A stretch of 36,816 nucleotides of DNA from Nitrospinota bacterium (GTDB lineage: Bacteria > Nitrospirota > Nitrospiria > Nitrospirales > UBA8639). Made by a program: the position numbers and the translations under genes. Below, piece after piece: positions 9,932 to 36,486 of this stretch (the first letter of the stretch is position 1; each line of letters opens with the position of its first letter). The stretch is from NCBI GenBank assembly GCA_022572725.1, contig JACZVJ010000019.1:1-36816 (forward strand), written 5' to 3'. The notes under the pieces were generated by a model that had not been told where the DNA came from, searched no databases, and was given only the letters and a program-made list of their open reading frames with translations.

Positions 9932-10176
9932 TTGGTGATCATGCCCACGTTGAATGACGTGATGAAGGAGATGGTGAAGGCGAACTCATGAGGTGCAAGG
10001 CAGGTGCTACACGGAATCACAAGTTAACCACATAAATCTGTTCCCTTTTCAATTCTGCCCACCGGGTCCCCCTCCCCCTCATTGACATCGAGGAGAATCC
10101 TGTGGCTTACTCGAACACCATTTCCCTTCCACCGGCCGGGGCGGCTGGGTGACCATCCGAAAGGATCATTTTGCCT

Positions 10177-10875
10177 ATGAGGGTCCGGTTCAAGGAGTTC
10201 AACCCAGAGAAATTTTCCTTCCACAAGGACCCGGTGTTGGTTATTGAAGATTTCTGGTCCCAAGAGGAGCGGGCCCTCTTTCAGGACGCTTTGCAGCGCT
10301 CAACGTGGAAGTGTCTCACCGAAATGCCCGAAGTGAAGCGGGTATTCCCGAATTGCGGGAATTGGCTCAAAGCCGAAATTGGCCCGCAAGAAGCGACGAT
10401 CTTTCGCAATCGGGTCACCCTCCCCTGTATCGCCGACTTTATTGAATCGTTCCCCAACATTAAACAGCGCCATATGACCTTTAGTTACTACTCTTATGGT
10501 GTTGGCGATTGCCTCTCTACCCATGATGATACCGGCGAAGATTATTCCGTTGAACGGCAACCCCACCAAGACCATACCGAAGGCCGCGACCGGAGCACGC
10601 AACCGTTTCCGGCCCTTCGTCGCATCGCGCTGGTCGCGTACCTTCACCACAGATGGGATCACGATTGGGGAGGAGAACTCATCATTTACAACGCCCGAAA
10701 GGGAAAAGATGGGAAACTGAACCTTGAGGTGGCCCACTGTCTTGAGCCCAAACCAGGGTCTCTGGTCCTTTTTACTGTGCCCCGCTATCACCGTGTCTGC
10801 CGCGTGGATCCCCTGGCGGATTCTCAAAAACGCCTTTCTATCGGCGGGTGGTTCATGACCGAACACCATGGATGA
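10177..10875 (+). CDS. 2OG-Fe(II) oxygenase, prolyl-hydroxylase-like
   Basis: Predicted 2-oxoglutarate/iron(II)-dependent oxygenase of the prolyl 4-hydroxylase superfamily. The double-stranded beta-helix region carries a candidate iron ligand pair in S-T-H-D-D-T-G (His-x-Asp type). A second possible set is H-Q-D-H. The distal His is in P-R-Y-H-R-V-C-R-V, and the 2OG-binding Arg in R-L-S-I-G-G-W-F. The G-G-E-L-I-I-Y core strand is typical. The substrate may be a free amino acid, a protein proline or something else; sequence alone does not say. An in-frame TTG (10171) is an alternative start; AAGGAT lies upstream. It precedes the hydroxyproline-dehydratase-like gene on the same strand, with a repeat element between. 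Confidence 0.82.
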   Translation: MRVRFKEFNPEKFSFHKDPVLVIEDFWSQEERALFQDALQRSTWKCLTEMPEVKRVFPNCGNWLKAEIGPQEATIFRNRVTLPCIADFIESFPNIKQRHMTFSYYSYGVGDCLSTHDDTGEDYSVERQPHQDHTEGRDRSTQPFPALRRIALVAYLHHRWDHDWGGELIIYNARKGKDGKLNLEVAHCLEPKPGSLVLFTVPRYHRVCRVDPLADSQKRLSIGGWFMTEHHG

Positions 10876-10894
10876 ACCGGCCTGCCTACTCTAA

Positions 10895-11093
10895 CAGGTT
10901 GTTGAAAAACACTTTTGGCACAGGGGCAACACAGCACTCGAGGAGATCAGGGACGGCATCAGCAGCCCGCAGGATGGTCAAAAAGGCCGTCCAGCGCGGC
11001 CGCAGCAAGCGAGGAGGCGAGGCGTACTCTGTTCGGTACGTCGAGCCTCCAAGCACCGCGAGAACAAAGCTGGCGGACTTTTTCAACATTCTG
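10895..11093. mobile_element. MITE-like inverted-repeat element
   Basis: Non-coding element of about 199 bases. The ends CAGGTTGTTGAAAAA (10895) and, inverted, CAGAATGTTGAAAAA (11079-11093) match at 13 of 15 positions. A nested copy of the end motif at 10970-10995 also pairs with 11069-11093 (GCTGGCGGACTTTTTCAACATTCTG), enclosing a 70-base interior with its own GGAGGC...GCCTCC arms around GTAC. No transposase. From memory this resembles an abundant repeat in Nitrospira genomes; that needs a genome search. Confidence 0.7.
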
Positions 11094-11155
11094 CTAAGCC
11101 TGATACCCTTTCCCCTTTTTCCTCTCTATGTCCTCCCTTTCTAGGCCTACCCATT

Positions 11156-12154
11156 ATGCACCGCATTACCACCATTGATGTGCACGTGGCCGGGGAACCA
11201 CTCCGGGTGATTACCTCGGGATTCCCCGAGCCCCCTGGAAACAGCATTCTGGAGAAGCGCCGGATGTGCCAGGACCAGTCTGATCACATCCGGCGTGCCT
11301 TAATGTGGGAGCCCCGCGGGCACCCCGATATGTACGGTTGCCTGGTGGTGTCACCTTCCCTTTCTGAAGCCGATTGTGGCGTTCTGTTTTTTCATAACGA
11401 GGGCTACAGCACCATGTGCGGGCACGGGATCATTGGACTCGTAACCGTGCTCTTGGAAAACGCCATGATCCCTTGCGCTGAGCCGGAGACGACTGTTCGA
11501 CTGGAAACGCCTAGCGGACTGGTCACGGCCAAGGCATCAATTCAGAATGGTCGTGTGAGCTCGGTGGCCTTTCGAAATGTGCCTTCTTTTGTCGTTGATC
11601 TCGACCAGAGGATGGAGGTCCCAGGTGTAGGAGTCGTTCCGTACGATCTCGCCTTTGGGGGGGCCTTTTATGCCTTCTGCCAGGCTGAAGCGCTGGGGAT
11701 CGAGTTAATGCCGGAGCAGTCCCGTCGGTTGGTGGATCTGGCCATGGCGATCAAGCAGGCCATCACCGCCCACCGACCGATCTCTCACCCCGTGGAGCCG
11801 GAATTGGGGTTTTTGTATGGAACGATTTTTGTGGGCCCTGCCTCGGGCTCCGGGGTGTATCGACGCCACGTGTGCGTCTTTGCCGACGGGGCCTTAGACC
11901 GGTCGCCCACGGGAACCGGCGTGAGTGCTCACTTAGCTCTGCTTAATTCGAGGGGACTGGTGGCGCCTGGCGAACCGTTGGAATTTGAAAGTATCCTCGG
12001 GACTCGGTTCACCGGTCGGGTTGTGGAGCAGATGGAATTCGCCGGTCATCCCGCGATCATTCCGGAAATTGGAGGGTGTGCATATCTGACCGGTCGACAG
12101 GAATTCTTTATCGATCCCGATGATCCTCTCAAAGATGGTTTTTTATTGAGATAG
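11156..12154 (+). CDS. Trans-3-hydroxy-L-proline dehydratase-like (proline racemase superfamily)
   Basis: Member of the proline racemase/hydroxyproline epimerase superfamily, 332 residues. The first catalytic Cys is kept (Cys88 in T-M-C-G-H-G), but the second motif reads D-R-S-P-T-G-T-G, with Thr252 where racemases and epimerases have Cys. A Cys/Thr pair is the signature of trans-3-hydroxy-L-proline dehydratases, which make delta-1-pyrroline-2-carboxylate. The remaining conserved segments (D-V-H-V-A-G-E-P, F-G-G-A-F-Y-A, V-C-V-F-A-D-G) are intact. It sits about 280 bases after a prolyl-hydroxylase-like oxygenase on the same strand, which fits hydroxyproline metabolism. No pyrroline-2-carboxylate reductase gene is nearby. 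Confidence 0.87.
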   Translation: MHRITTIDVHVAGEPLRVITSGFPEPPGNSILEKRRMCQDQSDHIRRALMWEPRGHPDMYGCLVVSPSLSEADCGVLFFHNEGYSTMCGHGIIGLVTVLLENAMIPCAEPETTVRLETPSGLVTAKASIQNGRVSSVAFRNVPSFVVDLDQRMEVPGVGVVPYDLAFGGAFYAFCQAEALGIELMPEQSRRLVDLAMAIKQAITAHRPISHPVEPELGFLYGTIFVGPASGSGVYRRHVCVFADGALDRSPTGTGVSAHLALLNSRGLVAPGEPLEFESILGTRFTGRVVEQMEFAGHPAIIPEIGGCAYLTGRQEFFIDPDDPLKDGFLLR

Positions 12155-34418: not shown

Positions 34419-34434
34419 TGTTATGATAACCCCA
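34419..34434 (+). promoter_or_regulatory. Possible extended -10 promoter, leaderless start
   Basis: TG-T-TATGAT (34419-34427) is an extended -10 element whose predicted transcription start falls on or next to the A of ATG 34434. No Shine-Dalgarno and no good -35 box are visible. This would give a leaderless mRNA. Confidence 0.4.
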
Positions 34435-35681
34435 TGGTCTCAGAAACCATCACTTTAGAAGGCCATATCATCGATTCGTTAATCCTCGCGAAGGTCTTGG
34501 ACACCATCCTTCAGATGGGTGGCACCTTTGATCTGACCGAGGTCAAAATCGGCGAAACCCGCGAAGAGTCCTCTCTTGCAAAAATCCGTGTCCGGGCTGA
34601 AGCACCAAAACTTCTGGATGAAATCCTCCAAACCATTCAACCTCATGGAGCGACCGTCCAGCACATCGCCGACTGCCAAGTGGAACCTGCCCCAAAGGAC
34701 GGAGTCCTCCCCGATACCTTTTACGCCACCCCTCATCTCCCCACTCAGGTTCGATTAAAGGGCCAATGGGTGGATGTAGAGGCCATTGAAATGGACCTCG
34801 CTATTCGAATTACCCAAGATCCACCTACAGCCCATACCATTCCTATGGCCGAAGCCAAGAAGGGGGACTTAATCGTCGTCGGGCGAACAGGGGTTCGGGT
34901 GTTTCCCCTGGAGCGTCCAAAGGAACGGGATGTCTTCGGTTTCATGGAAGCGCAGGTCTCTTCCGAACGCCCGCACCAACCAATCATTACCGATGTGGCC
35001 AAAAGAATGGCGGGCATTCGGGAGAACCGAACCTCACATCACGATCCCGGTCTAGGGGAAAAAGTTCTCTTGGTGGGAGGCCCGGCGATTGTCCATTCCG
35101 GGGGCCGAGAAGCTGTGTCCTGGCTCATTCAGGAAGGTTACATCCATACCCTTTTTTGTGGGAACGCCCTTGCCGCACACGATATCGAAGCCAGTCTGTT
35201 CGGGACCTCCTTGGGATTCGGACTGTGTGCCGGAAGGTCGGTGCCTCATGGGCATGAACACCACCTCCGGACCATCAACCGCGTTCGAGCAGCAGGAAGT
35301 ATTCGGAAAGCGGTGGAGTCCGGGCTCATTAAAGATGGGATTATGGCGTCCTGCATTCACCACAATGTGGAAATGGTGTTAGCCGGAAGCATTCGGGATG
35401 ATGGGCCTCTACCCGGTGTCATCACGGATACCGTGCAAGCCCAAACCGCCATGCGCGCGGCCTTACCGGGAGTGGGATTGGCCCTCCTGGTGGCGACGAC
35501 CCTCCACGCCATCGCGACGGGAAATTTGCTCCCGGCCAAGGTGCCCTCCGTGTGCGTGGACATCAACCCTGCCGTTCCGACCAAACTCAGCGACCGGGGC
35601 AGCTTCCAAGCGGTAGGATTAGTGATGGATTCCTCATCCTTCCTTCGACAAGTCGCCCAGGTCCTCGGGTGGAAGGGGTAA
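34434..35681 (+). CDS. TIGR00300 family protein (LOR/SDH domain; ornithine cyclodeaminase-type)
   Basis: 415 residues. The N-terminal 100 residues (E-T-I-T-L-E-G-H-I-I-D-S) form the LOR/SDH bifunctional-enzyme conserved domain. A Rossmann-like region follows with V-L-L-V-G-G-P-A-I-V-H-S-G-G, L-F-C-G-N-A-L-A-A-H-D-I-E, G-H-E-H-H-L-R-T-I-N and C-V-D-I-N-P-A-V-P-T-K-L-S-D-R-G. Archaeal members and the C-terminal half of cyanobacterial AgrE are reported to convert ornithine to proline with ammonia release; that activity is inferred here from family membership and the ArgZ-like gene 4 bases downstream. NAD(P) binding is likely. Confidence 0.86.
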   Translation: MVSETITLEGHIIDSLILAKVLDTILQMGGTFDLTEVKIGETREESSLAKIRVRAEAPKLLDEILQTIQPHGATVQHIADCQVEPAPKDGVLPDTFYATPHLPTQVRLKGQWVDVEAIEMDLAIRITQDPPTAHTIPMAEAKKGDLIVVGRTGVRVFPLERPKERDVFGFMEAQVSSERPHQPIITDVAKRMAGIRENRTSHHDPGLGEKVLLVGGPAIVHSGGREAVSWLIQEGYIHTLFCGNALAAHDIEASLFGTSLGFGLCAGRSVPHGHEHHLRTINRVRAAGSIRKAVESGLIKDGIMASCIHHNVEMVLAGSIRDDGPLPGVITDTVQAQTAMRAALPGVGLALLVATTLHAIATGNLLPAKVPSVCVDINPAVPTKLSDRGSFQAVGLVMDSSSFLRQVAQVLGWKG

Positions 35682-35685
35682 GAGC

Positions 35686-36486
35686 ATGGGCAGACTCCTC
35701 ATATGTTCACCGGACTATTATGGGATTGAATATGAAATTAACCCCTGGATGCGGGTGTCCAATGCCGCGGACCCACAAAAAGCCAGGGATCAATGGGTGC
35801 AACTTATCAGGGTTCTTGAAGAAGAGGTCGGCGCCAAATTAGAGCGGCTGACACCGGTGCCGGGATTACCCGACCTGGTGTTTACTGCCAACGCCGGCGT
35901 CGTGTACGAGGGGAAAGCCGTCCCGAGCCGATTCCGCCATCCTGAACGACAACGGGAAGAAGAGCACTTCGAACGATGGTTCGCGGAAAAAGGCTATCAA
36001 GTGATCACGCTGGAAAAGGAATGTTTTTTTGAAGGAGCAGGAGATCTTCTTGGCTTTCCGGATACCTGGTTTGGCGGGTATCGACAACGCAGCGACATCC
36101 GTGCCTATCCCCAGCTAAGCGAACTATTCGGGAAAGAGATATTACCCCTGGAACTTGTGTCGGGACATTTTTACCACCTCGATACCTGCTTATGTCCGCT
36201 CAGTGGAGGGGAACTGTTGTATTATCCTCCAGCGTTTGATTCGTATGCCCAAACCACCATCGCCCATCGGGTCGAAGAAAACCGCCGACTGGTTGTGCCA
36301 CAGAATGAAGCTGAAAGATTCGCCTGCAATGCGGTGTGCATCGACACCCATGTCGTGCTCCCCTCCGGCTGCCCCGAAACCATGTCGATGCTCCAAGACC
36401 GGGGCTACACCCCCCACCCCGTCGAACTGGATCAGTTTCTCAAAGCCGGCGGCTCCGCCAAATGCCTGACCCTTGCTTTAGATTAA
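35686..36486 (+). CDS. ArgZ-like arginine dihydrolase (amidinotransferase fold)
   Basis: 266-residue guanidine-modifying enzyme of the arginine deiminase/dimethylargininase superfamily, close to the N-terminal domain of cyanobacterial ArgZ/AgrE. The family start Y-Y-G-I-E-Y-E-I-N-P-W-M is clear. F-T-A-N-A-G carries Asn69; as I recall, the equivalent Asn distinguishes dihydrolases. E-G-A-G-D-L-L and H-F-Y-H-L-D-T-C supply the acidic and His catalytic groups. Cys260 in S-A-K-C-L-T-L is the nucleophile. Expected reaction: arginine to ornithine, CO2 and two ammonia; a deiminase or dimethylargininase activity is the alternative. It is cotranscribed with the TIGR00300 gene. AAGGGGTAAGAGC supplies the ribosome site. 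Confidence 0.86.
   Translation: MGRLLICSPDYYGIEYEINPWMRVSNAADPQKARDQWVQLIRVLEEEVGAKLERLTPVPGLPDLVFTANAGVVYEGKAVPSRFRHPERQREEEHFERWFAEKGYQVITLEKECFFEGAGDLLGFPDTWFGGYRQRSDIRAYPQLSELFGKEILPLELVSGHFYHLDTCLCPLSGGELLYYPPAFDSYAQTTIAHRVEENRRLVVPQNEAERFACNAVCIDTHVVLPSGCPETMSMLQDRGYTPHPVELDQFLKAGGSAKCLTLALD

Follow-up and report, generated by a model that had tools for sequence, protein, structure and literature searches.

A two-gene, probably AgrE-like arginine catabolic operon conserved in Nitrospirales

The AgrE-PutA catabolic pathway of Anabaena turns arginine into proline, setting free three ammonium and one CO2, and proline into glutamate (PMC8262935). AgrE (Alr4995; PDB 6lrf-6lrh) and the Synechocystis protein ArgZ (Sll1336; 6juy-6jv1) are each one fused protein, in which the arginine dihydrolase (ADH) part precedes the ornithine cyclodeaminase (OCD) part. 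OCD of the TIGR00300 type also exists as a stand-alone protein in archaea (MMP_1218, MTH_867; 3c2q), where a role of MMP_1218 and MTH_867 in proline synthesis was reported (PMC10809761).

The window analysed here, a stretch of 36,816 nucleotides whose last position is also the contig end, downstream of the ADH gene, carries the same two domains as AgrE and ArgZ, with the same catalytic residues and predicted reactions, but as two genes with OCD first. Its OCD stands alone and keeps the core residues, like the archaeal proteins, and is instead paired with an arginine dihydrolase. The enzyme types are already known. The pair is real and well conserved, and it probably constitutes a two-gene operon for arginine catabolism of the AgrE kind. 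Its distribution, its co-occurrence with PutA and the question of a nickel cofactor are the main points of interest.

Two adjacent genes matching the halves of AgrE

Table 1. Positions in the window of the OCD and ADH genes and of features within them
Feature	Position	Strand	Basis
OCD (TIGR00300-type ornithine cyclodeaminase), 415 aa, ATG start	34434..35681	+	family and PDB matches
OCD N-terminal domain, PF04455 (LOR/SDH conserved region)	34443..34733	+	110 bits, residues 4-100
OCD middle domain, PF21571 (ArgZ-like_C_1st)	34740..34988	+	101 bits, residues 103-185
OCD Rossmann-fold domain, PF21570 (ArgZ-like_C_2nd)	34992..35651	+	315.5 bits, residues 187-406
GGAAGGGG, plausible ribosome-binding site of the ADH gene	35671..35678	+	inspection of sequence only
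ADH (ArgZ/AgrE-type arginine dihydrolase), 266 aa, ATG start	35686..36486	+	family and PDB matches
Asn69 codon of ADH	35890..35892	+	counterpart of Asn altered in ArgZ 6juz; invariant in 113/113 homologues
Cys260 codon of ADH (putative catalytic nucleophile)	36463..36465	+	counterpart of Cys altered in ArgZ 6jv1; invariant in 113/113 homologues

A profile search with TIGR00300 gave 498.3 bits for the OCD gene product over residues 2-405, above the curated cutoff of 410.8, and in PDB alignments its full length corresponded to the C-terminal part of AgrE (6lrf, 6lrh) and ArgZ (6juy) as well as to the archaeal 3c2q. Its three Pfam domains (Table 1), all above their gathering cutoffs, reproduce the architecture of the ArgZ C-terminal part. 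In the Rossmann-fold domain the GHxHH and TKLxDRG stretches were invariant among 86 sequences including AgrE and 3c2q, and alignment of the homologues showed H274, H277, R321, D322, H358 and D376 to be invariant and K384 nearly so. As judged by these matches, the product is a full-length TIGR00300 OCD, for which an ornithine to proline activity is predicted.

The solved structures of ArgZ and AgrE match the ADH gene product over its whole length (E 1e-64 to 1e-67; 43% and 45% identity, respectively), the next solved relatives being DDAH with E 1e-6. Asn19, Asn69, Glu116, Asp120, His164, Asp166 and Cys260 are invariant in 113 homologues including ArgZ and AgrE; over the part aligned, the ArgZ entries 6juz and 6jv1 each carry a single substitution relative to wild type, an Asn and a Cys, respectively, being replaced by Ser. 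The profile searches gave 279.8 bits with the arginine dihydrolase model NF052232, below its cutoff of 450, and 274 bits with the model of bifunctional ArgZ, whose cutoff of 1025 applies to the full-length fused protein. The NF052232 cutoff appears to be fitted to cyanobacteria, since it was reached by none of the 198 sampled Nitrospirota genomes, every Nitrospirota ADH homologue included. We class the protein as a homologue of NF052232 without assigning it to that equivalog, and arginine dihydrolase is the best assignment that its homology suggests.

The OCD stop and the ADH start are separated by 4 nt. The element GGAAGGGG, located 7 nt upstream of the ADH ATG and inside the end of the OCD gene, suggests on inspection that ADH would be translated efficiently from one shared mRNA. 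The first-pass annotation had described separate genes, 4 bases apart and in the order opposite to AgrE, and both the coordinates and the full-length homology to the two AgrE halves, a similarity far above chance level, agree with this description. A fused polypeptide with ADH first, as in AgrE, was not observed, the reading frames being two with OCD first; the pair may nevertheless work like AgrE without being a fused AgrE.

Gene order and distribution of the pair

TIGR00300 was found above its cutoff in 52 of the 198 Nitrospirota genomes. Of the 56 genomes that represent the window's order (families f1, to which the window belongs, and f2), 51 carry OCD when a frame-broken copy in G197 is counted, and so do two other genomes of the class; OCD is accompanied by ADH in every OCD-bearing genome of the Nitrospirota sample. 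The two genes lay on the same strand with OCD upstream in all 30 Nitrospiria loci fetched, and the pair in this order is also present in Ca. N. defluvii (FP929003) and N. moscoviensis. The coordinates of one sampled genome, G055, agree with those of FP929003 and identify it as Ca. N. defluvii, by which the window's order is Nitrospirales.

A second set consisted of the best 80 relatives listed from GTDB genomes, ranked by similarity to the window, a choice by which fusions elsewhere may escape. OCD lay upstream of ADH on one strand in 59 of them, among which are MAGs of Planctomycetota, Chloroflexi, Deltaproteobacteria, Armatimonadetes, Verrucomicrobia and Gastranaerophilales; for the other 21 no OCD was found within the stretch covered, which a contig end explains in some cases. 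Neither the reverse order, ADH before OCD, nor an ADH-OCD fusion was seen among these best 80 relatives. The split pairs of Planctomycetota, Chloroflexi, Deltaproteobacteria, Armatimonadetes, Gastranaerophilales and other groups share the order and strand of the window, with gaps mostly below 150 nt and OCD identities of about 41-63%, and no characterised member was found among them in the literature. Our literature search, outside which lie most subscription journals, returned no description of the two-gene form and its spread, nor any link between Nitrospira and a TIGR00300/ArgZ-type enzyme.

In a FastTree phylogeny, the fused ArgZ and AgrE fell within the split forms, in a group (support 0.92) with Gastranaerophilales proteins that include a split one. 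The simplest reading is that the two-gene OCD-ADH order would be the common form and the cyanobacterial fusion derived. Nothing supports calling the arrangement unusual, the two-gene form being standard in Nitrospirales and present in several other phyla. In the sample examined, cyanobacteria are the exception, and the wording 'split, order-swapped' fits them better than the window's genome. A two-gene version of the AgrE-type arginine route occurs in nearly all Nitrospirales and in several other phyla, which indicates that the route is not peculiar to cyanobacteria.

Two further observations concern the distribution. The genomes of family f17 and locus L161 (G131:C10) carry ADH without a TIGR00300 partner; G131 has PutA, and another ornithine-to-proline or ornithine-to-P5C step may serve there. 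A pair whose ADH and OCD are 77% and 76% identical to those of the window was found in a genome titled 'Nitrospinia bacterium' (L059, JAJDAT010000001.1) and groups inside the window's family, reflecting either a mislabelled genome or a gene transfer.

Predicted fate of arginine

By homology, ADH would hydrolyse arginine to ornithine, two NH3 and CO2 through a cysteine-nucleophile mechanism. OCD would then move the C-alpha hydride of ornithine onto its bound cofactor, a nickel-pincer nucleotide according to the NCBIfam name of the family, after which the imine would cyclise, releasing the third NH3, and return of the hydride would yield proline. PutA, encoded elsewhere in the genome, would oxidise proline to glutamate and pass the electrons to respiration, and the pair and PutA together would recover nitrogen, carbon and electrons from arginine. 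The predicted conversion of arginine to proline, three NH3 and CO2, already proposed in the first-pass annotation, equals that published for AgrE (PMC8262935), and the ADH, OCD and PutA set of the window's genome matches the Anabaena pathway, in which PutA likewise acts downstream; with PutA encoded, the predicted route appears complete.

The PutA-type protein of the window's genome (G000:C32, 993 aa) contains both the ProDH and the P5CDH parts and scored 606 bits with a model whose cutoff is 747. PutA was present in 21 of 21 genomes with OCD and in 2 of 9 genomes without it (n=30; Fisher p=1.8e-5, kinship ignored). OCD, ADH and PutA are jointly missing from four genomes (G105, G161, G165 and G179), and all three are retained in same-genus relatives (g7, g10, g2) of three of these. 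Three of the four are small (1.7-2.0 Mb), so that the joint loss may reflect general reduction. G133 has kept PutA without OCD and ADH. The only arginase or agmatinase match within the window's family was a fragment of 57 residues, encoded in the window's own genome.

Because of the homology, the retained catalytic residues, the conserved gene pairing and the co-occurrence with PutA, we consider it quite probable that the two genes form an operon for arginine catabolism with the same function as the cyanobacterial AgrE. Separate proteins are more likely to release free ornithine, and ADH could chiefly run an ornithine-ammonia cycle via arginine synthesis, as published for Synechocystis ArgZ (Zhang 2018, as cited in PMC8262935), with OCD draining surplus ornithine. 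We regard this as unlikely: in Nitrospirales OCD and ADH always co-occur, and the presence of PutA follows that of OCD, a pattern that speaks for onward flux to proline and glutamate. An even smaller chance is given to a hydrolase acting on another guanidine compound, for instance methylated arginine as in DDAH. The ADH score below the NF052232 cutoff would fit such a substrate, as would the 233.6 bits obtained with the Mycobacterium-type DDAH model (cutoff 300). This last match is, however, non-discriminating because ArgZ itself scores 239.5 bits on the same model, and solved DDAH structures are far more distant than ArgZ and AgrE. The genome moreover encodes a separate DDAH-like protein, and the pairing with OCD implies ornithine as the product.

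Least probable of all, and very improbable in our estimate, is that the pair serves proline biosynthesis, the function reported for its TIGR00300 relatives in methanogens. ProA was found in 40 of 40 and ProC in 30 of 30 genomes tested, including the window's genome and all OCD-bearing ones, so that proline supply is probably independent of the pair and proline is likely made by the usual route. On account of these two enzymes the pair was rejected as the only proline route, and the retained PutA points to degradation; the part of proline supplier that the first-pass annotation had given to the pair is not supported. The probable AgrE-like operon offers a simple hypothesis for nitrogen recovery from arginine in Nitrospirales.

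The wider roles suggested in the first-pass annotation fared less well than the chemistry. Storage of nitrogen as cyanophycin found no counterpart in the profile searches, which detected no cyanophycin synthetase above cutoff in the window's genome and 29 relatives; the matches in the window's genome were far below cutoff and covered just Mur-ligase-like or ATP-grasp parts. The release of ammonia to feed ammonia oxidizers is speculation. So is a hydroxyproline link to the arginine pathway, as nothing was found that ties the gene pair at 10177-12154, which according to the first-pass annotation might use the proline formed by ADH and OCD, to that pathway. At 10171-12154 a 2OG-Fe(II) oxygenase gene precedes one for a member of the proline racemase family, whose active-site signature, Cys in MCGH and Thr in DRSPTGTG, resembles that of the solved trans-3-hydroxy-L-proline dehydratase 7qpo.

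The DDAH-like guanidine hydrolase mentioned above (L157:801-1613, G000:C122) matched NF045660 with 208 bits (cutoff 340), and weaker matches occur in several relatives of the window's family. Two ProA-like proteins are encoded in the window's genome, the canonical one (496 bits, C15) and another (G000:C181:5330-6544; L040:5237-6592, minus strand) that scored 336 bits with TIGR00407; such a second copy is present in most Nitrospirales genomes tested.

OCD and the nickel-pincer cofactor genes

TIGR00300 bears the NCBIfam name 'ornithine cyclodeaminase, nickel-pincer nucleotide-dependent', for which we found no basis in the literature searched, most subscription journals being outside it. Profile searches showed that the window's genome encodes LarB, LarC and LarE, and found no LarA in it. 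Of the 43 genomes of the sister family f2, 41 have larC at 4.5-7.6 kb from OCD; the window's own family shows no such closeness. Since larB adjoins gpsA with or without OCD nearby in the genomes inspected, the closeness of larC and OCD in the sister family may be one inherited arrangement.

Co-occurrence of LarB, LarC and LarE with OCD failed as a clean test of nickel-pincer use, LarC being present in 151 of the 198 Nitrospirota genomes, some of them without OCD. Five OCD-less Nitrospirales keep LarC and LarE, and all five also have LarB, so that the nickel link of OCD, a plausible prediction, is suggestive only. LarA (PF09861) exceeds its cutoff in 15 of the 198 genomes, and most Nitrospirota therefore carry nickel-pincer genes without a known client enzyme. 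OCD is a candidate client for these genes in many LarA-less bacteria. Tentatively, and at somewhat less than even chances, the OCD of the mostly LarA-less Nitrospirales could be a main user of an otherwise orphan nickel-pincer pathway, in which case nitrogen recovery from arginine would hinge there on the assembly of a nickel cofactor. In four sister-family loci (L048, L049, L053 and L054), gpsA, larB and larC stand beside OCD and ADH in a conserved order.
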